From assembly GCF_040529055.1 (NCBI RefSeq), contig NZ_CP132342.1, positions 1,734,001-1,798,000 on the forward strand: a stretch of 64,000 nucleotides of DNA, written 5' to 3'. A program made the position numbers and the translations under genes. Positions 6,939 through 46,022 of this stretch are shown here, in pieces. This DNA comes from Xanthomonas sontii (lineage in GTDB: Bacteria; Pseudomonadota; Gammaproteobacteria; Xanthomonadales; Xanthomonadaceae). Position 1 is the first letter of the stretch. The number at the start of each line of letters is the position of its first letter. The notes under the pieces are model-generated. The model did not search any database and was not told the origin of the DNA. It was given only the letters and a program-made list of their open reading frames with translations.

Positions 6939-8684
6939 TTATGCCAGTGCCGGGCCGTTGCGGCTCGGTGCGTCCCGCTCGCGCGCCAATTCCTGCTGTT
7001 GCGCGAGTTGCCGTTCGCGGTCGATCGCCTGGTTCGCGGCCTGCAGTCGCTGGTCGGACTGCTCCACCGGAGTGGCGAGCGCCACTTGCACATCCACGCT
7101 GGCGCGCTTTTGCGCCGGGTCGCGCTGTTCACCTTCGACCACCACCAGATGGCCCTTCTCGGTGAGCGCCACGCGATCGGCCCGTTCCAGTGCGTTCGAC
7201 GCCAGCGGCGCGTTGCCGGGGCCGCCATTGTCCCGGCAAGCGGCCAGCGCAGCACGGCTCAGGCGTTCGCTGGCCGCATCGTACGGTTTGCCCAGATCCT
7301 GGTCGATCCTTCTGACGCCCTCGCGGATCTGCTCGAGCAGCGCATGATTCCGGTGGCTGGCGTCGTTCGGGCCGGGCGCCGACGCCGGAGCGCGATCCGG
7401 CGCAGGCGTTTGCGGTTGCTGCTGCTCGCTGCGTTCGCGCAACTGCGCCGGGGTCGGTACGTGCAGCAGCGTTTCGCTCTTGCCGTCCTTGCGCAGTTGA
7501 AGATCCACGCTCTGATCGGCATTGCCGACGCGCTTGACCTCGTCGCGCTGCACCGCGCTCCACTTGCCGCCGACGAAGGCGGTACCGTGACCGTTCCCAT
7601 CGAAGACGACCACATCGTTGTCCGCGCCGAACAGGCTCGACGACTGCGCGACCGTCTTACCGTTCCGGCCTTTGAGGTTGTAGCCGAACGCACTGTCCTG
7701 GTCGAGGGCGCCGATCAGTTTTGGCGACTGGCCGTTCTGCAGGAACAGGGTCTTGGTCGCGTTGTACTGATGCAGCGCATCCGCGTGGGCGGTATCGCCC
7801 TTCAGGTCGACGGGGCTGCGCAATGGGTCGGCGGAGACCGCCGCAAAAGCGTCATGCAGGGGATTCCCGGGCTGCGCCGCACGGAGCTTGTTGAACACCT
7901 CGGTACCTGCGAGCGCGTGGTGGACGCCGCTCTCGATGTAGTCGGGCACCACCTCGCCTTTCTTGTTGGTCTTGTTCGGCAGCAGCGCGTCGACCTTGTT
8001 CACCACGTCCTCGACGCTGCCGAGGCTGCCGTCGTTGATGTCCTTGAGGATCTTCGGATACTGACTCTTGCCGGCCTGGTTCTCCAGCTTCATCAGCACG
8101 GTGGCGTACTTGGCCTGGTCGTCCAGGCTCGCGTTCTTGTACAACTCCGTCTGGCGCAATTGGTGCAGCGCGCCGCCAGGGTCCTTCTTGCCGTCGCCTT
8201 CGCGCATCAGATGGTCGATCTGCGTGCGGTCGCGATCGTGTACGAATTGCACGCCTGCATCGGAGGCCAGGAAGCTATTGAGGTTCTTGAGCACGGTTGC
8301 ATCGGGTGCGCGGCCGTTGTCCGCGCGGATGGCATCGCCATTGCGCTGCAGATCGGAGATCGTCTGTGTTCTTTGGTTTTCCGACAGCGCCAGGCTCGGA
8401 GTCTGCCGGGCGGCCCATGTCTGGTAGGCATCCACCAGCGTCGGGACGACGTCCGGATGTGCGCCCAGGTCGGTCTGCAGCGTGCCGATGCTGAAGCCGC
8501 TGTTGGCCACCGGCTTGAGCGTGTTGCCCTCGACCGATCCGGCGAACGACAGGTGATAGGCCACATTCTTGGAGCCCAGGCTGCCTTCCGAGACCACGCC
8601 GATGGCGAAGTAACCCAAGGTCTTGAGTTGCGCGTCGGTGAGTTGCGGCCTTGCCGCGGTGGGGGCGGTGTTTGGATCGGACAT
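6939..8684 (-). CDS. Predicted antibacterial type IV secretion effector (XVIPCD protein)
   Basis: 581 residues without a signal peptide. The C-terminal 136 residues (about 446-581) carry the hallmarks of the Xanthomonadales VirD4-interacting domain. These are a helix LLEQIREGVRRID, an ALTEKGHLVVVEGE strand pair, a DPAQKRASVDV motif, TPVEQSDQRL and a Gln-rich tail. The N-terminal 110 residues (SEGS..., NSGFSIGTLQTDLG) resemble lysozyme-like or peptidoglycan-hydrolase effector domains; that assignment is weaker. The middle (about 110-445) is unassigned. Family knowledge says such proteins are delivered into rival bacteria by the X-T4SS and are paired with periplasmic lipoprotein immunity proteins. 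A lipoprotein gene lies immediately upstream on the same strand. Confidence 0.8.
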   Translation of the reverse strand: MSDPNTAPTAARPQLTDAQLKTLGYFAIGVVSEGSLGSKNVAYHLSFAGSVEGNTLKPVANSGFSIGTLQTDLGAHPDVVPTLVDAYQTWAARQTPSLALSENQRTQTISDLQRNGDAIRADNGRAPDATVLKNLNSFLASDAGVQFVHDRDRTQIDHLMREGDGKKDPGGALHQLRQTELYKNASLDDQAKYATVLMKLENQAGKSQYPKILKDINDGSLGSVEDVVNKVDALLPNKTNKKGEVVPDYIESGVHHALAGTEVFNKLRAAQPGNPLHDAFAAVSADPLRSPVDLKGDTAHADALHQYNATKTLFLQNGQSPKLIGALDQDSAFGYNLKGRNGKTVAQSSSLFGADNDVVVFDGNGHGTAFVGGKWSAVQRDEVKRVGNADQSVDLQLRKDGKSETLLHVPTPAQLRERSEQQQPQTPAPDRAPASAPGPNDASHRNHALLEQIREGVRRIDQDLGKPYDAASERLSRAALAACRDNGGPGNAPLASNALERADRVALTEKGHLVVVEGEQRDPAQKRASVDVQVALATPVEQSDQRLQAANQAIDRERQLAQQQELARERDAPSRNGPALA

Positions 8685-8733: not shown

Positions 8734-9582
8734 TTAGCCTCTGCCTTCTCCGCAGAGCTTGAGGTTGGTGCGTGCGGCGCGGATCACGCGGAGGTAATCG
8801 TCGACGAGGGCGGGCGTCATGCCATCGCTGATGGCGTCGTCGCTGCGCTTGGCGTCGTCCTGGTAGGGCGCCAGCGTCTGCCGGCATCCGGCATCGTCGC
8901 CGAGTTTATGCTGGGTCAGCGCGTAGTCGTTGCGGATGGCGCCGGCGTCGCTGAAGCTGAGGGCCGCCACGCAGTCGCGATAGAGCGGCGCGAGCGCCGC
9001 TTCGGCACCCGCATAGTCCTTGCGATCGTAGGATGCCTGGAAGGCCTTGCGCGTTTGCTGCATGACTTCAGGCGTGCAGGTCGCAGCCTGTTTCAGATAG
9101 TCGCCTGCGAAGCTGCCGTTGCCGCCGCAGTACTCCCGGCACGCGCTCTCGGCGCCGGCCGTGGCGGACACCGCCACGCCGTCTGCCTTGGGTGCGAACT
9201 GCAGCGTGCAGGTGCCGTCGTCGACCGCGGCCTGGGTCCCGTGCAGCGTGCCGCTGAAGCTGCAACCGGCATCGACATTCTGCGTTTCGAGGGTGAAGCG
9301 CGCATCGGGCTGCACGGTCAGCTGGCCCCAGCCGGGCTGGGTGGCATAGTGGCCGGGGGGCACTTGCGCGGCCGCCGCATCGTGCGTCGCAGCAGGCGCC
9401 GTCAGGCCGTTCGCGGCAGGCGCGGGGGCGGTCGGGGGCACGGAGGGCGTCGCGCTCGCGGGTGCCTGGGCGGCGTTGCCACAGGCGCACAGGGTCGCCG
9501 CGCAGCACAGGGAGAGCAGCAGTCCACGCGGGATCGGTGCGGCGGCCAGGATCCTGGCGGTCCAGCGAGGCGCGGTGTCCAT
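8734..9582 (-). CDS. Lipoprotein, candidate immunity partner of the adjacent effector
   Basis: 282 residues from the ATG at 9582. The N-terminal hydrophobic stretch ends in a lipobox LCAC with lipidated Cys34. The residue after the Cys is Gly rather than Asp, consistent with outer-membrane sorting. A Pro/Ala linker (about 40-80) leads to a small beta-rich domain with several paired cysteines and then a helical region of about 120 residues. I do not recognise a named domain. It ends 49 bp before the effector start on the same strand, the arrangement seen for X-T4SS effector/immunity pairs, whose immunity proteins are typically periplasmic lipoproteins. Immunity is inferred from position and localisation, not homology. 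Confidence 0.6.
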   Translation of the reverse strand: MDTAPRWTARILAAAPIPRGLLLSLCCAATLCACGNAAQAPASATPSVPPTAPAPAANGLTAPAATHDAAAAQVPPGHYATQPGWGQLTVQPDARFTLETQNVDAGCSFSGTLHGTQAAVDDGTCTLQFAPKADGVAVSATAGAESACREYCGGNGSFAGDYLKQAATCTPEVMQQTRKAFQASYDRKDYAGAEAALAPLYRDCVAALSFSDAGAIRNDYALTQHKLGDDAGCRQTLAPYQDDAKRSDDAISDGMTPALVDDYLRVIRAARTNLKLCGEGRG

Positions 9583-9751
9583 CCGATCATTCCATCGACG
9601 CGGGCGGCCGAGTCTAGCCCCGCCCGGATCGGCGCCGCAAGCCTGGATGCCGCCTCGTAATCGGTCGTGGAACGGCGGCCCGCCGGGCAAGCGTCCGGCA
9701 AGCGCGATGGCCAGGTGTCGACGCTGCCGTTCCGCCGGTAGTGCCCCAGCC

Positions 9752-10684
9752 TTACAACGCGTAACCGAACTGCTGCTTGAACTGGTCGTTGAATTCGTCG
9801 AAGTCGAAGCGCTGGTTCTGCGTGCCCGGGTGCTCGACCTTCAGGGCGCCCATCAGGTTGCCCATGCGGCCGATGGTCAGCCAGTCGCAGCCGCGCTGGA
9901 TGCCGAAGATCAGGCCGGCGCGGAAGGCGTCGCCGCAGCCGGTGGGGTCGACCACGCGGCGCTCGTGCGCCGGCGGGATGTCGTAGGTCTTCTCGGGGGT
10001 GTGGACCAGGGCGCCCTTGGGGCCCTGGGTGGTGATGTAGGCCTGCACGCGCGAGACGATGTCCTTCTCGTTCCAGCCGGTGCGCTCCTGCAGCAGGTTG
10101 GACTCGTAGTCGTTGACCACCACGTAGTCGGCCTGCTCGATGAACTGGCGCAGCTCCGGGCCGTTGAACAGCGGCATGGCCTGGCCGGGGTCGAAGATGA
10201 ACGGCACGCCGCCGGCGCTGAACTCCTCGGCGTTCTGGATCATGCCCTCGCGCCCGTCCGGGCCGACCAGGCCCAGGGTCACGCCCGGCACGTCCTTCAC
10301 GTGGTTCTCGTAGCTGCGCATCATCGCGCCCGGATGGAACGCGGTGATCTGGTTGTTGTCGTGGTCGGTGGTGATGAACGCCTGCGGGGTGAACAGCTCC
10401 TCGATCACCTTGACCCGCGACAGGTCGATGCCCAGCGCCTGGAAATGCTCGCGGTACGGGCCGAAGTCCTGGCCCACGGTGCCCATCGGGATCGGGTGGC
10501 CGCCCAGCAGGTGCAGGTTGTAGGCGATGTTGCCGGCGCAGCCGCCGAACTCGCGGCGCATCCGCGGCACCAGGAACGACACGTTCAGGATGTGCACCTT
10601 GTCCGGCAGGATGTGGTTCTTGAACTGGTCCGGGAACACCATGATGGTGTCGTAAGCGAGAGAACCACAGATCAGTGCAGACAT
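9752..10684 (-). CDS. PfkB/ribokinase-family sugar or nucleoside kinase
   Basis: 310 residues from the ATG at 10684; an in-frame start 33 bp upstream is less likely because it adds a non-conserved tail. The PfkB signatures are present: the N-terminal GGCAGNIAYNLHLLGG glycine-rich motif and the C-terminal DPTGCGDAFRAG motif containing the catalytic Asp and anion hole. The overall sequence resembles the adenosine-kinase-like branch annotated in xanthomonads. It is transcribed divergently from mreB. Phosphorylation of a sugar or nucleoside hydroxyl by ATP is well supported; the substrate is not. Confidence 0.85.
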   Translation of the reverse strand: MSALICGSLAYDTIMVFPDQFKNHILPDKVHILNVSFLVPRMRREFGGCAGNIAYNLHLLGGHPIPMGTVGQDFGPYREHFQALGIDLSRVKVIEELFTPQAFITTDHDNNQITAFHPGAMMRSYENHVKDVPGVTLGLVGPDGREGMIQNAEEFSAGGVPFIFDPGQAMPLFNGPELRQFIEQADYVVVNDYESNLLQERTGWNEKDIVSRVQAYITTQGPKGALVHTPEKTYDIPPAHERRVVDPTGCGDAFRAGLIFGIQRGCDWLTIGRMGNLMGALKVEHPGTQNQRFDFDEFNDQFKQQFGYAL

Positions 10685-39172: not shown

Positions 39173-40171
39173 TCAGTTGAACGCCGACAGCGCCTGGGTC
39201 AGTTTCCCGTTGTTGTCGACCGCGCCCATCGTGTAGCCCTGCCAGCCCGGATACGCGTCGGGTTCCCAATAGAACACGCCCAGGCCGCGGCTGCCGAGTG
39301 CGCGGGTCTTGCTCAGCAGATCGGCCAACATCGCGCGGGTGGTCGCGGCCTGCTGCCAGTCCATGCCGACCTCGCTGACGATCACGTCCGACCCGTAGCG
39401 CGCCACCATGTCCTGCATGTTGCTGGCGATCTGGGTGTTGGCGCTCTGCCAGGCATTGGGGGACGGGTAGTGCGACATGCCGATCACGTCCCACTTGCCG
39501 CCGGCCGACTTGAGGCTGTCGAAGAACCAGCGGAAGGTCGCGTTGTCGTGGCCGTTGGCCAGGTGCACGATCACCTTGGCGTTGGGATAGACCAACTTGC
39601 TGGCGTTGTAGCCGCTGTTGATCAGTTGCGCGAGGTTGCCGAAGTTGGGCGTCTTGCCGTCCGGCCACAGCATGCCGCTGTTGATCTCGTTGCCCACCTG
39701 CACCCAGCTCACGTCGATGCCGTTGGACTTGAGATAGGACAGGATGCCGCTGGTGTGCGCATACACGTCCTTCACCAGGGTCGCGAAGTCGTGGTTGTTC
39801 CAAGCCGCCGGCTTGGTCTGCTTGCCGGGATCGGCCCAGCTGTCGCTGTAGTGGAAGTCGATCATGATGCGCATGCCCTGCGCCTTCGCGCGCTTGGCCA
39901 TGTTCAACGTGTCGGCACCGTCGTTCCAGCCGCCCTGCGGATTGACCCACACGCGCAGCCGGATCGCGTTGACCCCGGTGCCCTTGAGCAGCGCGAAGAA
40001 ATCGGTGGTGGCGCCGGAGGCGTTGCGGAATACGCGACCGCTGCTCTCCTGCTGATCGATCCAACTGACATCGGCACCCTTGGCGAAGGTCTGCGCCATG
40101 GCCGGCGCACACAGACAGGCGAGCAACAACACCAGCAGCCAGGCGGACACGCGCTTGCTCGATCGGTTCAT
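39173..40171 (-). CDS. Secreted arabinogalactan endo-beta-1,4-galactanase (GH53)
   Basis: 332 residues from the ATG at 40171. A signal peptide ends at PAMA|QTF. The (beta/alpha)8 barrel shows GH53 landmarks: KGADVSWIDQQE, the RLRVWVNPQGG strand, IDFHYSDSWADP, the acid/base Glu in VGNEINSG, and the nucleophile Glu in VSEVGMDW. It hydrolyses beta-1,4-galactan side chains of type I arabinogalactan and pectin. The motifs are complete and the length is typical. With the GH28 gene and the expansin it forms a dispersed plant cell-wall toolkit. Confidence 0.95.
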   Translation of the reverse strand: MNRSSKRVSAWLLVLLLACLCAPAMAQTFAKGADVSWIDQQESSGRVFRNASGATTDFFALLKGTGVNAIRLRVWVNPQGGWNDGADTLNMAKRAKAQGMRIMIDFHYSDSWADPGKQTKPAAWNNHDFATLVKDVYAHTSGILSYLKSNGIDVSWVQVGNEINSGMLWPDGKTPNFGNLAQLINSGYNASKLVYPNAKVIVHLANGHDNATFRWFFDSLKSAGGKWDVIGMSHYPSPNAWQSANTQIASNMQDMVARYGSDVIVSEVGMDWQQAATTRAMLADLLSKTRALGSRGLGVFYWEPDAYPGWQGYTMGAVDNNGKLTQALSAFN

Positions 40172-40379
40172 GCGATTCTCGCGATGATGGGAGGAGGGAA
40201 GGGGGGCGTCATGCGGCCCCGAGGAGTGGGCGCAGCGACGTGCCGGGCCGTCCCCCCGCGGCCGCGGCGCGCACGAGGCTAGCGCGATCGTCACGGCGAC
40301 GCGCGCTGCACTGCAGCGGTGCTGTCGCGACGTCCGCAAGCGCTGTCTGGATGGCCGATGAATCTGCGCGGTACGTCAC

Positions 40380-40407
40380 TTGACGCGATGCGGCATCGGC
40401 GTAGCAT
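40380..40407 (+). promoter_or_regulatory. Sigma-70 promoter of the nadM-nadV operon
   Basis: TTGACG (40380-40385), a 16-bp spacer and TAGCAT (40402-40407). The predicted start near 40414 leaves a leader of about 50 nt. The upstream 200 bp back to the GH53 gene contains no other feature that I can support. Confidence 0.6.
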
Positions 40408-40463
40408 TCCGCTCACGCCAAGGGACAGACCCGCGGCGATCCACCCAACCGTGAGGGATGCTC

Positions 40464-41513
40464 ATGGAGTTCGACTATCTGGTGTTCATCGGGCGCTTCG
40501 AGCCCTTCCACAACGGCCACGCCGCCGTTGCCCGCCACGCCCTCGCACGTGGTCAGAAACTCATCTTCCTGATCGGCTCGGCCGAGACCCCTCGTACCAT
40601 CCGCAATCCCTGGACCGTTGCTGAGCGCAGCGTGATGATCCAGGCCGCGCTGGAAGGCGCCGGCGAGCGCTTGATCCTGCGGCCGTTGCGCGACCATCTG
40701 TACAACGAAAGCCAGTGGATCGCCGCGGTGCAGTCCACGGTGGCCGAGGCGGTGCGCAGCGACGGCGGCAGCGCCGAGGCGCGGATCGGCCTGATCGGCA
40801 TGGACAAGGACGCCAGCAGCTATTACCTGCGCGAATTCCCGCAGTGGCCGCTGGTCGACGTGCAGCACACCGAGACGCTGTCGGCGACCGAGCTGCGCCG
40901 TTACCTGTTCGAGGCCGGCAGCATCGATTTCCACGGCGCGCTGCTGATGCTGCGCGGCAACGTGCCGACGCCGGTGTTCGACATGCTCGAGGCGTTCCGC
41001 AAGAACTCGCCCTCGTATGCCGAACTGCTCGCCGAGTACCAGTTCATCGAGCAGTACCGCGCCGCCTGGAAGGAGGCGCCGTATCCGCCGACCTTCGTCA
41101 CCGCCGATGCGGTAGTGGTGCATTCCGGGCACGTGCTGCTGGTGCGCCGCCGCGCGGCGCCGGGCAAGGGCCTGTGGGCGCTGCCCGGCGGCTTCGTCGG
41201 CCAGCACGAGAGCATCCTCGACGCCTGCCTGCGCGAACTGCGCGAGGAGACCCGGCTGAAGATTCCGGTGCCGGTGCTCAAGGGCTCGCTGAAGAACCGC
41301 CACGTGTTCGACCACCCCGAGCGCAGCCTGCGCGGGCGCACCATCACCCACGCCTTCCACTTCGAGTTCGTGTTCGGCGAACTGCCCGAGGTGCGCGGCG
41401 GCGACGACGCCGACAAGGCGCGCTGGGTGCCGGTCAGCGAAGTGCTGGGCATGGGTCCGAAACTGTTCGAAGACCATCTGCACCTGCTCGAATTCTTCCT
41501 CGGCCGCGGCTGA
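40464..41513 (+). CDS. nadM: Bifunctional nicotinamide-nucleotide adenylyltransferase/Nudix hydrolase
   Basis: 349 residues. The ATG at 40464 is preferred over 40458 because GAGGG lies at a normal distance. N-terminal NadM-type NMNAT domain (about 1-180): FIGRFEPFHNGH with the HxGH nucleotidyltransferase motif and the C-terminal LSATELRRYLF. C-terminal Nudix domain (about 205-345) with the box GGFVGQHESILDACLREL continuing into REET; the usual Gly near the box end is Arg. NadM-Nudix fusions such as the Synechocystis and Francisella enzymes make NAD from NMN and ATP and hydrolyse ADP-ribose. It is the first gene of a four-gene unit with nadV 61 bp downstream. Confidence 0.95.
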   Translation: MEFDYLVFIGRFEPFHNGHAAVARHALARGQKLIFLIGSAETPRTIRNPWTVAERSVMIQAALEGAGERLILRPLRDHLYNESQWIAAVQSTVAEAVRSDGGSAEARIGLIGMDKDASSYYLREFPQWPLVDVQHTETLSATELRRYLFEAGSIDFHGALLMLRGNVPTPVFDMLEAFRKNSPSYAELLAEYQFIEQYRAAWKEAPYPPTFVTADAVVVHSGHVLLVRRRAAPGKGLWALPGGFVGQHESILDACLRELREETRLKIPVPVLKGSLKNRHVFDHPERSLRGRTITHAFHFEFVFGELPEVRGGDDADKARWVPVSEVLGMGPKLFEDHLHLLEFFLGRG

Positions 41514-41574
41514 CGCGGCCTTCCCGGCCGGCGGACAGACCGCCGGCTTTCCCAGACGCGAAGGAGCTTCCGTC

Positions 41575-42999
41575 ATGCAATGCCTGAACAACCTGCTGCT
41601 CAACACCGACAGCTACAAGGCCAGCCACTGGCTGCAGTACCCGCCCGGCACCGACGCCACGTTCTTCTACGTGGAATCGCGCGGCGGCGTCTACGACCGC
41701 ACCGTGTTCTTCGGTCTGCAGTCGATCCTCAAGGAGGCGCTGGGCCGCCCCGTCACCCATGCCGACATCGACGAGGCGCGCGACCTGTTCGCCGCGCACG
41801 GCGAGCCGTTCAACGAAGCGGGCTGGCGCGACATCGTCGACCGCCTCGGCGGCCAGTTGCCGATCCGCATCCGCGCCGTGCCCGAGGGCAGTGTGGTGCC
41901 GACCCACAATGCGCTGATGACCATCGAGTCCACCGACGCGCAGGCCTACTGGGTGCCTTCGTACCTGGAGACGCTGCTGCTGCGCATCTGGTATCCGGTG
42001 ACCGTGGCCACGGTGAGCTGGCACGCCAAGCAGACCCTGCGCCAGTTCCTGGAGCGCACCAGCGACGATCCGGACGGGCAGTTGCCGTTCAAGCTGCACG
42101 ACTTCGGCGCGCGCGGTGTGTCCAGCCTGGAATCGGCGGCGATCGGCGGCGCGGCGCACCTGGTCAACTTCCTCGGCACCGACACCGTGTCCGGGCTGTT
42201 GCTGGCGCGCGCGCACTACCACGAGCCGATGGCCGGCTATTCGATCCCCGCCGCCGAGCACAGCACCATCACCAGTTGGGGCCGCGAGCGCGAGGTCGAT
42301 GCGTACCGCAACATGCTCAAGCAGTTCGGCAAGCCCGGCGGCGTGGTCGCGGTGGTGTCGGACAGCTACGACATCTTCCACGCGATCCGCGAGCACTGGG
42401 GCACCACGCTGCGCGAGGAGGTGATCGCCTCCGGCGCTACCGTGGTGATCCGCCCGGACTCCGGCGATCCGGTGGCGGTGGTGCACCAGTGCCTGGAACT
42501 GCTCGACGAGGCCTTCGGCCATAGCGTCAACGGCAAGGGCTACAAGGTGCTCAACCACGTGCGGGTGATCCAGGGCGACGGGGTCAACCCGACCAGCATC
42601 CGCGCGATCCTGGAGCGCATCACCAGTGCCGGCTACGCCGCCGACAATCTGGCCTTCGGCATGGGCGGCGCGTTGCTGCAACGGCTCGACCGCGATACCC
42701 AGAAGTTCGCGTTGAAGTGCTCGGCCGCGCGCGTCGATGGCCGCTGGATCGACGTGTACAAGGATCCGGTCACCGACAAGGGCAAGCTCAGCAAGCGCGG
42801 GCGCATGCGCCTGCTGCGGCACCGCGAGTACGGCAGCTACCGCACCGGGCCGGTGGCGGCCGATGCCGTCTCTGCCGAGGCGGTGGCCGGTCCGGCCGGC
42901 TACGACGATGCGATGGTCACCGTGTGGGAGAACGGCCGCCTGCTGCACGACTGGACCTTCGCCGAGGTGCGCGAGCGCGCGAACGCGGCGCGCCTGTAG
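41575..42999 (+). CDS. nadV: Nicotinamide phosphoribosyltransferase (NAMPT type)
   Basis: 474 residues, matching NAMPT. Key features are the N-terminal NTDSYKASHWLQYPPG, RGVSSLESAAIGG, the phosphorylated His229 in EHSTITSWG, the nicotinamide/PRPP-site Asp295 in IRPDSGDP, and GFGMGG-like AFGMGGALLQ. A GAAGGAG ribosome site precedes the ATG. It converts nicotinamide and PRPP to NMN, which NadM then adenylates, so the two genes constitute a complete two-step NAD salvage pathway that bypasses deamidation. The next gene starts 9 bp after the stop. Confidence 0.96.
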   Translation: MQCLNNLLLNTDSYKASHWLQYPPGTDATFFYVESRGGVYDRTVFFGLQSILKEALGRPVTHADIDEARDLFAAHGEPFNEAGWRDIVDRLGGQLPIRIRAVPEGSVVPTHNALMTIESTDAQAYWVPSYLETLLLRIWYPVTVATVSWHAKQTLRQFLERTSDDPDGQLPFKLHDFGARGVSSLESAAIGGAAHLVNFLGTDTVSGLLLARAHYHEPMAGYSIPAAEHSTITSWGREREVDAYRNMLKQFGKPGGVVAVVSDSYDIFHAIREHWGTTLREEVIASGATVVIRPDSGDPVAVVHQCLELLDEAFGHSVNGKGYKVLNHVRVIQGDGVNPTSIRAILERITSAGYAADNLAFGMGGALLQRLDRDTQKFALKCSAARVDGRWIDVYKDPVTDKGKLSKRGRMRLLRHREYGSYRTGPVAADAVSAEAVAGPAGYDDAMVTVWENGRLLHDWTFAEVRERANAARL

Positions 43000-43008
43000 G
43001 AGGCGGTC

Positions 43009-44115
43009 ATGCATGCGTCCCAGTCGAGTCAGCCGCCGTTGAGCGGCGGCTCGCCGCTGTTCGCCGCGCTGCGCGCCAGCACCCCGCACCTGGAATGGCG
43101 GGTGCCGGCCGTTGCCGATGCGTCGCGCTGGCGCCAGCAGCGCATCGGCGCACGCGACTACCGCGTCGCGCAGCCGGTGACCTTCACCCCTTACGCGTCG
43201 GTGCGGCCATGTTCGGCGCGCTGCCGTTTCTGCTCGGAGACCCTGCGGCCGCAGGCCGGCGGCACCGCCGCGGCCAGCCTGCGGCCGCCGCCGGACTACT
43301 TCGCGCAACTGCGTCAGGCATTGGCGCAGTTGCGCGGACTGCCGCTGTCGCATTCGCTGTCGGGGCTGGAGATGACCGACGACGAACACTGGTTCGTGGA
43401 GTTGCTGCAGACCCTGGGTGCGGCCGAGCGCGAGGGCCTGCTGGTCGAACAGCGGGTGCTGTACAGCAACGGCGCTGGTTTCGCCCGCGGCCACGGCGAG
43501 GTCTTGCTGCAGGCGTTGCAGTGCTTCGGTCTGTCGTGGATCGAGCTGTCGCGGCACCATCCGCAGCAGGCGCAGAACGATGCGATCATGCGTTTCCGCC
43601 CCGGCGAGGCGATCGCCGATGCGGAGGTGTTCGTCGCCACTGCGCAACGCATCGCCGAAGCGCTGCCGTTGCGCCTGGTGTGCATCCTGCAGCACGGCGG
43701 CATCGCCGATGCCGACGGCGTCGCGGCCTACCTGGACTGGGCGCGCGCCTGCGGGGCGCGCACGGTGATCTTCCGCGAATTCTCCCGGCTCGGCGACGGC
43801 TACCGCGATGGCGGCACCGCACGCTATCTGACGCAGGCGCGGGTCGCGGTGGAGCAGGTGCTCGGCGCCTGCATGGCCGCGCCGTGGTGGCGCGAATTGC
43901 AGCCGCTGCAGATCACCGAGGGCTACTACTTCTGGAACCTGCGCCTGGCCACCGCCGACGGCATGGAGGTGGTGTTCGAGACCTCCGACTACGGGGCGAT
44001 GCACGCGCGCCACGACAGCGGTGACATCTACAAGCTGGTGTTCTTCGCCGACGGCCGGCTGTGCGCCGGCTGGCAGCCGGACCGCGATCTGCTGTGGCGG
44101 GCGTCGCATGGATAG
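43009..44115 (+). CDS. Radical SAM protein of unknown function in the NAD-salvage operon
   Basis: 368 residues. The 4Fe-4S motif CSARCRFC (Cys68, Cys72, Cys75) defines a radical SAM enzyme. It is followed by a GLEMTDDE segment in the place of the GGE/GGEP motif, a VLYSNGAGF strand and barrel-like repeats to about 280. The C-terminal 70 residues (YYFWNLRLATADGMEVVFETSDYG, then YKLVFFADGRLCAGW) form an extra domain with no further cysteine cluster. I cannot assign a substrate. The AGGAGG ribosome site lies inside the nadV stop region, and its own stop overlaps the next ATG by 8 bp, so it is tightly coupled to both neighbours. Confidence 0.8.
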   Translation: MHASQSSQPPLSGGSPLFAALRASTPHLEWRVPAVADASRWRQQRIGARDYRVAQPVTFTPYASVRPCSARCRFCSETLRPQAGGTAAASLRPPPDYFAQLRQALAQLRGLPLSHSLSGLEMTDDEHWFVELLQTLGAAEREGLLVEQRVLYSNGAGFARGHGEVLLQALQCFGLSWIELSRHHPQQAQNDAIMRFRPGEAIADAEVFVATAQRIAEALPLRLVCILQHGGIADADGVAAYLDWARACGARTVIFREFSRLGDGYRDGGTARYLTQARVAVEQVLGACMAAPWWRELQPLQITEGYYFWNLRLATADGMEVVFETSDYGAMHARHDSGDIYKLVFFADGRLCAGWQPDRDLLWRASHG

Positions 44116-45157
44116 CCGCAGCTGGTGGACGCCGCAGCCGGATCCGCCGCAACATCGGCTGCCGGAGGACCTGCGCCAGCGCGATCCGCTGGGCGCGCGC
44201 GACTGCGGCTGGGTCGGGCAGATGCGTCCGTTCGTGCGCCACTTCAGCGCGCCGGGTGAGCGCGTGCTGGATCCGTTCTGCGGCTTCGGCAGCACCTTGC
44301 TCGCGGCGGAACTGGAAGGGCGCCACGGCATCGGCCTGGAGATCGACGCGGCGCGCGCGGCGCTGGCGCGCGAACGGCTGCAGCGGCTCGGGCTGCACGC
44401 CGAGGTGCTGGACGGCGGCTTGCCGCACTACGCGCCATCCGCGCCGGTGGACCTGTGCCTGACCAACGTGCCGTACTTCGGCTGTGCCTGGCCGGCTGCG
44501 GCGGGGCCCGACCAGCTCTACGCCAGTGCCGACTACGCCGCCTACCTGCACGGCCTGCGCGCGGTGTTCCATGGAGTCCGCCGCCACCTGCGCGAGGACG
44601 GCTTCTGCATCGCGATGGTGGAGAACGTCCAGCTTGGCGAGGCCACGGTGCCGCAGGCCTGGGACCTGGCGCGGATCCTGGGCAGCCTGTTCGCGCCCTG
44701 TCCAGAGCGCGTGTTGTGCTACCCACGCGAGACCGCGCAGCCGCTGGCGCCCGGCGACACCCGCAGCGACCGCAGCCACGAGTACGCGCTGATCTTCCAG
44801 CACCGACGCCAGCGCATCGACCTGGCGGGTACGGCGCAGTTGCTGGAGGCGCTGCACGCCGACGGTTTCGTCTTTGCGCTGTACGGCAGCTATCCGCGCT
44901 GGCTGGCGGATCCGGCGGCGGCGCCGCGCCTGCCCGGCGACGTCGATCTGTTGCTGCCGCGCGACCCGGGCGGGCTGCTGCGGCTGCTCGACTGGCTGCG
45001 CGCGCGTGGCTTCCTGCTTAGCCTGTGGGGCGAGCCGCTGGCGGTGCCGCCGACCCTGGCACTGCTCGACGCCCATCATTACCTGCGCGCCGAACGTCGC
45101 GATCGCCACGGCGGCCTGCTGCGCGTGGACCTGGCGCTGGAACCCGCCGCCGCCTGA
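44108..45157 (+). CDS. SAM-dependent methyltransferase fused to a nucleotidyltransferase-like domain
   Basis: 349 residues from the ATG that overlaps the radical SAM stop. The N-terminal domain (about 20-235) resembles N4/N6 DNA methylases: SAM motif DPFCGFGSTLLAAELEG (Asp55 onward) and a catalytic TNVPYFG (119-125) in place of NPPY. The C-terminal domain (about 240-349) has the nucleotidyltransferase pattern: YGSYPRW (Gly260, Ser261), DVDLLLP (Asp278, Asp280) and a third carboxylate in RVDLALEP (Asp341). I know no named family with this fusion. The target could be nucleic acid or a small nucleotide. No restriction gene is adjacent. Confidence 0.7.
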   Translation: MDSRSWWTPQPDPPQHRLPEDLRQRDPLGARDCGWVGQMRPFVRHFSAPGERVLDPFCGFGSTLLAAELEGRHGIGLEIDAARAALARERLQRLGLHAEVLDGGLPHYAPSAPVDLCLTNVPYFGCAWPAAAGPDQLYASADYAAYLHGLRAVFHGVRRHLREDGFCIAMVENVQLGEATVPQAWDLARILGSLFAPCPERVLCYPRETAQPLAPGDTRSDRSHEYALIFQHRRQRIDLAGTAQLLEALHADGFVFALYGSYPRWLADPAAAPRLPGDVDLLLPRDPGGLLRLLDWLRARGFLLSLWGEPLAVPPTLALLDAHHYLRAERRDRHGGLLRVDLALEPAAA

Positions 45158-45281
45158 CGCGGTGGCGGCCAGCCTGCCCATCTCGCTAACCGCGGGATGA
45201 GCGGCCGCGGTGGCGTCAAGGCCGCGCCCACGCGCTTGCGGCTATCCTTTGCCGCGGTTCCCTCTCTCCGGTCAACGGCCT

Positions 45282-46022
45282 ATGTCCGCTCCCTCCAAGG
45301 TTCTCGCCATTCCCGCGCTCGCGCTGATCGCGATCGGCCTGAGCGGCTGTTTCGCGCGCAAGCAGGACGGCCTGGTGAAAGAGACCTTCAATTCCGACAA
45401 CACCTATTCGCGCAACTACCCGGTGCAGCCGGCGCAGGCCTGCGAATCGGCGCGGCGCGCGCTGCTGAGCCAGGGCTACGTGGTCTCCAAGGCCACCGCC
45501 GATGCGGTGGAAGGCACCAAGAACTTCCAGCCCAGCGACGAGTTGCATGAGCAACTGGAACTGCGCGTGTCCTGCGTCGCGCATGGGCAGGACGAATCCT
45601 GGGTGTTCGTCAGTGCCTTGCAGGACCGCTATGCGCTGAAGAAGAGCCCGACCTCGGCCAGCGTCGGCGTCGGCGTGCTCGGCTCGGTGTCCCTGCCGAT
45701 CGGCAGCAGCGACGATTCGATGGTGCGGGTGGCCAGCAGCACGGTGCAGGACGGCGACTTCTACAAGCGCTTCTTCCAGCTGATGAGCGAATACCTGCCC
45801 AAGAGCAAGCCGGCACCGGAGCCGTCTGCGCATCCGTCCGCGGCGGTGACGGCGCCGGCGCCGGCGCCGGCAGCGCCCGCACCTGTACCTGCAGCGTCGA
45901 CGGTGCCGACTCCGCCGCCCGCCGCAGCGCCCACGCCGCCGCCGGCACCCGCGGCCGCCACTGCGGCGCAGCCGCCCGTCGCGACCGCGCCTCCGAGCGG
46001 CGAGCCCGGCGGCGCCGACTGA
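45282..46022 (+). CDS. DUF2242-like lipoprotein with Pro/Ala-rich tail
   Basis: 246 residues from ATG 45282. Lipobox LSGC (Cys23). The middle region (about 35-170) has CESARRALLSQGYVV, a helix-strand start typical of DUF2242 lipoproteins, and ends with FYKRFFQLMSEYL. The last 70 residues are Pro/Ala repeats, a likely periplasm- or cell-wall-spanning linker. An extended -10 box GGCTATCCT lies 34 bp upstream without a clear -35. The function is unknown; the family assignment is from memory and moderate. Confidence 0.7.
   Translation: MSAPSKVLAIPALALIAIGLSGCFARKQDGLVKETFNSDNTYSRNYPVQPAQACESARRALLSQGYVVSKATADAVEGTKNFQPSDELHEQLELRVSCVAHGQDESWVFVSALQDRYALKKSPTSASVGVGVLGSVSLPIGSSDDSMVRVASSTVQDGDFYKRFFQLMSEYLPKSKPAPEPSAHPSAAVTAPAPAPAAPAPVPAASTVPTPPPAAAPTPPPAPAAATAAQPPVATAPPSGEPGGAD

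Follow-up and report, generated by a model that had tools for sequence, protein, structure and literature searches.

We analysed a window of 64,000 nucleotides of the Xanthomonas sontii genome (contig NZ_CP132342.1, positions 1,734,001 to 1,798,000), which contains a unit of four genes: nadM-Nudix, nadV, a radical SAM gene and a gene encoding a methyltransferase-nucleotidyltransferase fusion (Table 1). The four genes, their spacings and the residues named in an earlier sequence-only reading of this DNA were all found where that reading had placed them. The radical SAM gene begins 9 bp after the nadV stop codon, and its own last 8 bp (ending at 44115) are shared with the start of the methyltransferase gene (ATG at 44108), while the start of nadM was corrected to the ATG at 40464. 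The description of the unit was right in its gene set but left out two structured RNA leaders, one before nadM and one before nadV. The proposal that a single promoter precedes the set agrees with the one promoter-like site found there (0.2 expected in shuffles), and TTGAC-17-TAGCAT was also present upstream of nadM in the six Xanthomonas and Lysobacter relatives examined, the sixth base differing in one of them (L025). One terminator-like site lies within the unit (43214-43226); the region held two in total, against a chance mean of 1.9.

Table 1. Features of the four-gene unit, in window coordinates.
Feature	Position	Strand	Basis
Sigma-70-type promoter-like site, TTGACG-16-TAGCAT	40380..40407	+	one site, against 0.2 expected from shuffles
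Structured RNA leader copy 1 (ACAGA-loop hairpin and Shine-Dalgarno hairpin), before nadM	40414..40466	+	covariation
nadM-Nudix, nicotinamide-nucleotide adenylyltransferase with Nudix domain	40464..41513	+	NF003788, PF01467 + PF00293
Structured RNA leader copy 2, before nadV	41524..41577	+	covariation
nadV, nicotinamide phosphoribosyltransferase	41575..42999	+	PF18127 + PF04095, NF006629
Radical SAM protein, undescribed family, predicted MoaA/viperin-like barrel	43009..44115	+	CX3CX2C at 68/72/75
Methyltransferase-nucleotidyltransferase fusion, whole gene	44108-45157	+	
Methyltransferase domain of fusion, about residues 1-235	44108..44812	+	DPFCGFG, TNVPY
Probable nucleotidyltransferase domain of fusion, from residue 239	44822..45157	+	GS...DVD...D

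The first two proteins matched their family profiles well above threshold: nadM-Nudix scored 708 bits against NF003788 (cut-off 354) and NadV scored 689 bits against NF006629. These matches, together with the Pfam domains of both proteins, bear out the claim that the two genes provide a complete route from nicotinamide to NAD.

The radical SAM protein carries the CX3CX2C cluster motif of its superfamily, and C68, C72 and C75 were invariant in two alignments (22 and 23 sequences, window included). Beyond these three cysteines, only C225 was kept across eight divergent relatives, and C352 was not. The window protein had no Pfam match, including PF04055, which serves as a detection aid and is not a defining trait of the superfamily. 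Two relatives scored 25.6 and 27.6 for PF04055 (cut-off 29.5), a distant phage relative reached 33.5, and a precomputed PF04055 assignment was present on 5 of 120 relatives among the matches listed. The predicted structure has the partial or full TIM barrel of known members, and MoaA and viperin were among its nearest folds, a resemblance that does not in itself establish function. Both are radical SAM enzymes that act on free nucleotides. The modelled barrel resembles theirs, but the protein differs from them in a C-terminal block of its own (GYYF, NGNLC.GW) and in its partner proteins. An upstream gene that appeared fused to the radical SAM gene in two loci (L075 and L077) was rejected, as the called frames were poor in make-up and that of L077 had no Pfam match.

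For the fusion protein, structure prediction gave a confident model of two domains, in line with the two-part architecture proposed earlier. The N-terminal domain has the class I methyltransferase fold with motif I followed by N/D-x-PY, as in Trm11-type enzymes, and RNA base methyltransferases were the best fold matches of its model. THUMP is the RNA-binding domain of Trm11-type RNA methyltransferases; motif I of the fusion starts near residue 55 of 349, too early for this domain to fit before it, and we therefore class the domain as Trm11-like in fold only. The Trm11/TrmN/Trm14 guanine-N2 RNA methyltransferases share a D/NPPY motif where the fusion has TNVPY, and the fusion, unlike them, lacks THUMP and has a nucleotidyltransferase-like domain at its C-terminus instead. 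In this second domain G260, D278, D280 and D341 were invariant and S261 nearly so (20 sequences). The Pol-beta-like pattern G-S...D-x-D...D is present, and its Asp triad was unchanged in all 9 domains that were aligned, stand-alone ones included. A sequence search of the PDB returned no relative of the domain, and PF14907 and PF09970 gave sub-threshold matches, each in 2 of 9 members. The C-terminal domain is probably a nucleotidyltransferase. It is related to stand-alone proteins that follow radical SAM genes in other phyla. Since radical SAM and nucleotidyltransferase genes occur without the methyltransferase domain in one locus from each of three other phyla (L074, L081, L085), these two probably represent the older core of the module.

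The radical SAM gene was followed by its partner, or by the nucleotidyltransferase part of it, in 77 of 80 loci, and in 47 of the 80 the partner ATG overlapped it by exactly 8 bp. As judged from these loci, the two genes form a conserved, usually overlapping pair. We saw the pair in genomes of Xanthomonas, Lysobacter, Variovorax, Burkholderia, Herbaspirillum and Alcanivorax. Among 119 genomes of the window's family, 14 carried the pair and 28 carried NadV, with all 14 falling within the 28 and the pair lying at most 253 bp from nadV in every one of them (Fisher test 6.8e-11, uncorrected for kinship, 6 genera). The count started from 15 radical SAM matches, of which G449 (18.6 bits, 45 residues, internal stop) had been left out beforehand. 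In the Variovorax family, drawn around a genome already known to carry the pair, the pair and NadV each occurred in 2 of 150 genomes; these two were the same, and the genes lay on different contigs. The expectation of conserved co-occurrence was borne out, and the link to NAD, previously drawn from spacing, now extends beyond it through the counts in the two families. NadV was also found elsewhere in the genome in 15 of 19 chosen Pseudomonadota whose pair locus shows no nadV or nadM, compared with 8 of 299 genomes drawn across the phylum; the 32 genomes chosen were hand-picked, and 8 of them already had NAD genes seen beside the pair.

The reverse relation was much looser. In a draw across the phylum, 8 of 299 genomes had NadV and 2 of those 8 had the pair, and the pair was missing from 14 of the 28 NadV genomes of the window's family. 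The earlier reading would have been refuted by a pair absent or scattered in most nadM-nadV genomes, and on this point the outcome was mixed: half of the NadV genomes of the family have the pair, always adjacent, but only a quarter of those in the phylum draw do. Three Myxococcota genomes carrying the radical SAM gene had neither NadV nor NadM-Nudix, and the same held for three such Pseudomonadota (Pseudomonas indica, a Pseudoduganella and a Massilia). At the level of gene content, the occurrence of the pair within Pseudomonadota follows nicotinamide or nicotinate salvage, whether adjacent or not, and this association with NAD recycling is strong. The dependence runs in one direction: NAD recycling accompanies the pair, but is itself often found without it.

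The gene neighbourhood also varied. On the radical SAM tree we counted seven changes of arrangement; all 27 Xanthomonas-clade rows had one common arrangement. The pair was found in other settings with pncB-nadE-nadM or adjoining the repressor NrtR, and it adjoins nadE in Herbaspirillum and in a Burkholderiales genome; the candidate PncA of the Herbaspirillum operon gave a weak isochorismatase match (E 6e-4), below the cut-off. Further neighbours at times were an ADP-ribosylglycohydrolase, NADAR, KptA (in two clusters) and a 5'-nucleotidase-like gene. By these annotations, the pair lies in several lineages beside the ADP-ribose-sensing repressor NrtR and ADP-ribose-removing enzymes. A candidate operator, TTAGTTN7TAAAYTAA, was common to the Massilia NrtR/pair locus and the NAD operons of relatives, with 0-3 real matches per genome against 0-7 chance matches for the reversed pattern. 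NrtR with the exact pattern was found in Massilia (L062) and, for the whole operon, in L058, L066, L067, L071 and L076, while L055 had two sites with 2 mismatches. These clusters resemble NrtR-controlled NAD salvage regulons in their varying combinations of NadV, NadM-Nudix, PncB, NadE, ADP-ribosylglycohydrolase and NrtR. The Xanthomonas loci differ from such regulons in that phmmer labelled no NrtR gene in them, and the window has neither the operator pattern beside the unit nor a palindrome upstream of nadM.

In the window's lineage, control may lie in the RNA leaders. Each comprises two hairpins over the ribosome-binding site, of nadM in one case and of nadV in the other, and the covariation over 27 leaders was not reached in any of 500 shuffles. 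A covariance model searched against 67 sources found the leader before nadM or nadV only. The two window copies scored 56.1 and 57.4 bits, both by construction; for copy 1, an identical sequence had gone into the model. Searches of the two window stretches against Rfam 15 gave two matches each, all below the gathering scores of the families (7.8-13.8, where 40-100 were required), and no NAD+ riboswitch was among them. The NAD+-I and NAD+-II riboswitches are cis-regulatory RNAs before NAD genes, as the leaders are predicted to be, but the leaders differ in their two-hairpin form with an ACAGA loop. Among the matches listed from a leader-pattern scan of IMG/VR, 22 loci were searched with the model, which found two strong copies in one of them (L120). 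We discarded the idea that the leader also marks unlinked radical SAM genes: the model found none there in the loci searched, and none was seen by eye in 17 upstream stretches (10 bases only for L061). In this lineage translation of nadM and of nadV is probably controlled in each case by the gene's own leader, in which the second hairpin lies over the ribosome-binding site. The leader could be an RNA switch, perhaps a riboswitch that responds to NAD, NMN, nicotinamide or ADP-ribose.

A functional link between the pair and NAD recycling is, in our view, very probable. The best explanation, to which we give about an even chance, is a module of two proteins that modifies a nucleotide or RNA and is coupled to NAD turnover, with leader control; that the substrate is a nucleotide or RNA is itself an evenly balanced question. 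NAD would be split into nicotinamide and ADP-ribose and rebuilt by NadV-NadM, or by PncB-NadE-NadM, while the pair would modify or repair a nucleotide or RNA made or damaged during this turnover. The radical SAM enzyme, with its modelled MoaA/viperin-like barrel, would carry out radical chemistry on a nucleotide or base; methylation of an amino group would fall to the Trm11-like domain, and addition of a nucleotide to the nucleotidyltransferase. The main alternative, possible though clearly less probable, is that the pair acts not on RNA but on a small molecule derived from NAD, which it would recycle or repair; examples are a pyridine nucleotide that has been damaged or a derivative of ADP-ribose. 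NrtR, ADP-ribosylglycohydrolase, the NadM Nudix domain and the 5'-nucleotidase-like gene all handle small products of NAD or ADP-ribose, and the free-nucleotide chemistry of MoaA and viperin points the same way; the RNA base methyltransferases as best matches of the methyltransferase domain and the RNA enzyme KptA in two clusters argue against it. We consider it unlikely that the pair has no functional link and was carried along with the NAD genes through inherited operons and joint horizontal transfer. In Xanthomonas and Lysobacter, many loci do represent one inherited arrangement, whose relatedness inflates the family count, and the six NadV genomes of the phylum draw without the pair fit this reading, but co-occurrence on different contigs, the several NAD gene partners and orders, and the shared candidate operator speak against it.

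NARP2-like NAD reconstitution by phage NadV-NadM uses the same two salvage enzymes in one operon, but here they lie on a bacterial chromosome, in one Xanthomonas-clade arrangement and with two extra enzymes. A further alternative is a role in anti-phage defence or NAD-restoring counter-defence, in which the pair would modify nucleic acid and NadV-NadM would restore depleted NAD. PMC9503650 places NadV-NadM in phages and NADAR in NAD-ADP-ribose conflict networks. In a PADLOC scan of the unit's four proteins, the methyltransferase part matched mad2 of MADS best (residues 47-180, E 1.5e-15), with type II methyltransferases next. The remaining match, PDC-S07, fell on the Nudix part of nadM only, and NadV and the radical SAM protein had none, so that the matches are limited to the methyltransferase fold and the Nudix part. 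Pattern-based IMG/VR scans for the two pair proteins yielded 17 and 26 stretches as candidates, none of which was confirmed as a relative, and phage records held a single 27% relative of the radical SAM protein, in a gut phage; a phage-borne origin of the pair was rejected on these grounds. The single arrangement across the 27 Xanthomonas-clade rows likewise disfavours defence, and we regard a role in phages or defence as improbable, with little in its favour. Least probable of all is that the pair supplies a missing step, such as post-adenylylation amidation of a nicotinate nucleotide, for making NAD via NAMPT alone in Xanthomonas campestris lacking NAD synthetase. As described in PMC10907753, the NAD-synthetase deletion still grows without added nicotinamide and unknown enzymes were postulated. 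X. campestris carries the radical SAM gene, but amidation needs neither a radical SAM enzyme nor a methyltransferase, and Herbaspirillum and a Burkholderiales genome have the pair beside nadE.

The sequence-only reading knew of no described system with these two partners; we found none in the open-licence literature searched, nor any mention there of a radical SAM protein together with NrtR or NadV. The module and the leader have no described counterpart in the databases and literature searched, while each domain belongs to a known superfamily. More tentatively, the two may jointly represent a new NAD-coupled nucleotide/tRNA-modification pathway, in which the radical SAM enzyme, amino-group methyltransferase and nucleotidyltransferase would act in sequence during the regeneration of NAD from nicotinamide, and a new class of cis-acting RNA gating nadM and nadV translation. 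In a bold version, the guanine-N2-type methyltransferase would mark the position used by guanine ADP-ribosylation, and the module would thereby protect or repair RNA against it. NAD salvage and ADP-ribose networks are central in bacterial physiology and immunity, and the tie of the pair to nicotinamide recycling and ADP-ribose-removing enzymes points to where its substrate may be sought. The covarying nadM/nadV leader is a separate candidate for a new NAD-related RNA switch.

Among the matches listed, the proteins of the pair were annotated mostly as hypothetical protein, radical SAM protein or DNA methyltransferase. In comparisons with three Xanthomonas relatives, the radical SAM and fusion genes had dN/dS values of 0.10-0.31, and nadM and nadV had values of 0.007-0.12.

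All four genes of the unit are intact and follow one another in the order claimed by the sequence-only reading, and the single promoter that it had placed before them agrees with one promoter-like site. The TTGAC and TAGCAT elements of this site occur at equal spacing in all six relatives compared. The genome is a single contig of 5.02 Mb, and the closest relatives of the radical SAM protein are from Xanthomonas (95% identity). Purifying selection on the last two genes is clear though weaker, with dN/dS values of 0.10–0.31 against three Xanthomonas relatives.

Features of the four-gene unit (+ strand) and copies of its RNA leader (L-numbers, compared loci)
Feature	Position	Evidence or state
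Promoter-like site	40380-40407	sole one in 39900-45700; 0.2 expected
Leader copy 1, before nadM	40414-40466	covariation, covariance model
nadM-Nudix	40464-41513	intact
Leader copy 2, before nadV	41524-41577	covariation, covariance model
nadV	41575-42999	intact
Radical SAM gene	43009-44115	intact
Methyltransferase-nucleotidyltransferase gene	44108-45157	intact
Leader, other copies	L072 8819-8871; L095 1415-1470; L092 1448-1500

We searched for relatives of the radical SAM protein in one genome per species; 99 were found and 80 loci retained. The methyltransferase-nucleotidyltransferase, or its nucleotidyltransferase part, lay downstream in 77 of these 80 loci; the other three, L075 and L077 of Myxococcota and L070 of Burkholderia, showed no partner. 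An ATG overlapped the radical SAM stop by exactly 8 bp in 47 of the 80, and among the remaining 30 loci with a partner, 8 had GTG or TTG at that position, the rest showing other spacing or no visible start. The partner stands alone, without a methyltransferase domain, at three loci (Hyalangium L081, Planctomycetaceae bacterium L074, Hymenobacter plasmid L085), so the radical SAM protein and the nucleotidyltransferase are probably the core of the module. In phmmer comparisons the Hyalangium protein matched that of Hymenobacter with 92 bits; against the fused domain of many loci it scored 28–52 bits. A wider profile search gave 634 radical SAM relatives; Hymenobacter, Rhodocytophaga, Nocardia and Actinomadura were among the 120 listed.

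The pair (radical SAM and methyltransferase-nucleotidyltransferase genes) had been tied to NAD salvage by spacing alone. Among 119 genomes of the window's family, the radical SAM gene was present in 14 (one spurious match of 15 was dropped), the methyltransferase-nucleotidyltransferase in the identical 14, and NadV in 28, including all 14 pair carriers, where the pair lay at most 253 bp from nadV (Fisher 6.8e-11, uncorrected, the 14 stemming from 6 genera). The other 14 NadV genomes showed no remnant of the pair (best E 0.28), and in 9 of them nadM adjoins nadV. In one of these pair-less genomes (L112, 5826-6728) an ADP-ribosylglycohydrolase gene lies directly 3' of nadM-nadV. The 150 genomes of the Variovorax family, a sample centred on one of its two pair carriers, had the radical SAM gene in 2 and NadV in the same 2, on separate contigs. 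Outside these groups the pair is rare: the order of Alcanivorax had it in 1 of 194 genomes, namely the sample's centre. As a base rate, NadV was found in 8 of 299 genomes of a Pseudomonadota draw; the pair occurred in 2 of 398 genomes of the phylum draw (G000 and G154), both among these 8. The proposed co-occurrence thus stands when read from the pair (14/14 family carriers with NadV) but not from NadV, as 6 of the 8 NadV genomes, also sampled for the pair, lacked it. In 32 pair-bearing genomes or records hand-picked from 81 loci for clade coverage, some with loci cut by contig ends (e.g. L061), NadV was found in 21 of 32 and NadM-Nudix in 23 of 31. One or both were present in 24 of 27 Pseudomonadota, 8 of which were chosen with NAD genes already seen beside the pair; of the other 19, 15 carried NadV away from the pair and 1 carried only NadM-Nudix. 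Neither was found in three of the 27 (Pseudomonas indica, Pseudoduganella, Massilia). Counted without correction for kinship, and mainly in Pseudomonadota with very few genomes of other phyla, the pair is associated with NAD recycling.

The leader consists of an ACAGA-loop hairpin, a spacer and a hairpin containing the Shine-Dalgarno sequence just 5' of the ATG. The loop was closed by at least 3 pairs in 76 of 134 nadM or nadV upstream regions (some duplicated under two locus names). In 27 leaders chosen by hand from 59 distinct sequences, 88.0% of cells were paired (shuffled mean 70.6) and 11 of 13 base pairs showed both-sided changes; none of 500 shuffles attained any of the five covariation measures, though relatedness alone can beat shuffles and the structure was drawn from these same sequences. 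Sliding the partners out of register lowered pairing to 32–50%. In helix 1 the search itself conditioned the innermost three pairs; helix 2, selected only by a Shine-Dalgarno-like word before ATG, showed 98.1% pairing and compensation at 3 of its 4 pairs. Alcanivorax and Burkholderia leaders have the same shape with other stem sequences.

A covariance model run over 67 sources (1.04 Mb) gave 52 matches at E ≤ 1, some of which, including both window copies, had been used in building it; L011, L012, L025, L106, L112 and the nadV of L060 were matched from outside that set. Of the 52, 50 sit no more than 60 bases from a nadM or nadV start assigned by homology, 25 for each gene. Of the remaining two, one falls at the nadM start called in L025, and the other, in L099, occupies the position of the Alcanivorax nadV leader, which was matched in L072 as well (weakest three, E 0.2). 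Within the 67 sources there was no match before unlinked radical SAM genes or in the NrtR-pattern loci L058, L062, L066, L067, L071 and L076. The leader thus goes with nadM and nadV, whether the pair is present or absent. Against Rfam the window's two leader stretches gave only sub-threshold matches, and the element is a candidate new NAD-related cis-regulatory RNA. An IMG/VR contig filed as viral (L120) carries copies at 7800-7851 and 8906-8958, spaced approximately as the nadM and nadV leaders; it is either phage-borne or mis-binned host DNA.

Other arrangements place the pair beside different NAD-related genes. pncB-nadE-nadM precedes it in four Herbaspirillum loci and one Burkholderiales genome, the latter with an ADP-ribosylglycohydrolase gene in between. 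The Alcanivorax order is nadM-radical SAM-methyltransferase-nadV, with NrtR and ADP-ribosylglycohydrolase divergent, so that NrtR and leader are both present. In two uncultured Pseudomonadales the pair is surrounded by NADAR, KptA, NrtR, ADP-ribosylglycohydrolase and NadV. In an uncultured Pseudomonadales genome (L079, 12158-12796) a DUF4291 gene, possibly a further member of the ADP-ribose network, lies beside KptA, NrtR and ADP-ribosylglycohydrolase, and open-licence literature yielded no joint occurrence of DUF4291 and ADP-ribos- terms. NrtR adjoins the pair in Pseudoduganella and Massilia, with no NAD salvage gene within view of the locus. At L078 the stretch from NrtR to the radical SAM gene encodes a 128-residue protein (9544-9927) with no Pfam match. 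A quick radical SAM tree of 81 sequences (the window, L085 and all but one of the 80 retained loci) implied 4 changes between linked and unlinked states and 7 between arrangements, with labels set by hand, three contig-end rows omitted from these counts and a warning that long Alcanivorax and Pseudomonadales branches meet.

In Massilia a perfect palindrome, TTAGTTTACGTTTTAAACTAA, lies between NrtR and the pair, and its pattern also precedes NAD operons in L058, L066, L067, L071 and L076. Five genomes were scanned: the exact pattern occurred once each in G523, G524, G528 and G529, each time at this operon, and was not found in G521; G524 had one extra match with one mismatch. Since the reversed pattern gave 0–7 matches per genome, the evidence lies in position, not number. 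We infer that NrtR binds this candidate operator.

KptA consumes NAD on RNA. NrtR is described by its family entry (NF050029) as an ADPR-responsive repressor. One published source describes ADP-ribose sensing by NrtR-type regulators, and ADP-ribose removal as the role of NADAR and ADP-ribosylglycohydrolase (PMC9503650). In Xanthomonas campestris, another reports, NAMPT-based salvage is functional and a strain without NAD synthetase grows in minimal medium with no nicotinamide added; the authors suggest that enzymes or pathways not yet known may account for this growth (PMC10907753). The condition common to the partner genes would be NAD turnover, which yields nicotinamide and ADP-ribose; the pair is therefore proposed as a module that would be expressed for or with this turnover and, as its folds suggest, may modify or repair a nucleotide or RNA.

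No description of the module or the leader as systems was found in open-licence literature; their domains belong to known superfamilies. The gut phage Dulem virus 40 (L084, 9126-11276) encodes an acetyltransferase and, side by side, two radical SAM proteins, one of which is distantly related (27%) to the radical SAM family of the pair and keeps that family's C-terminal block.
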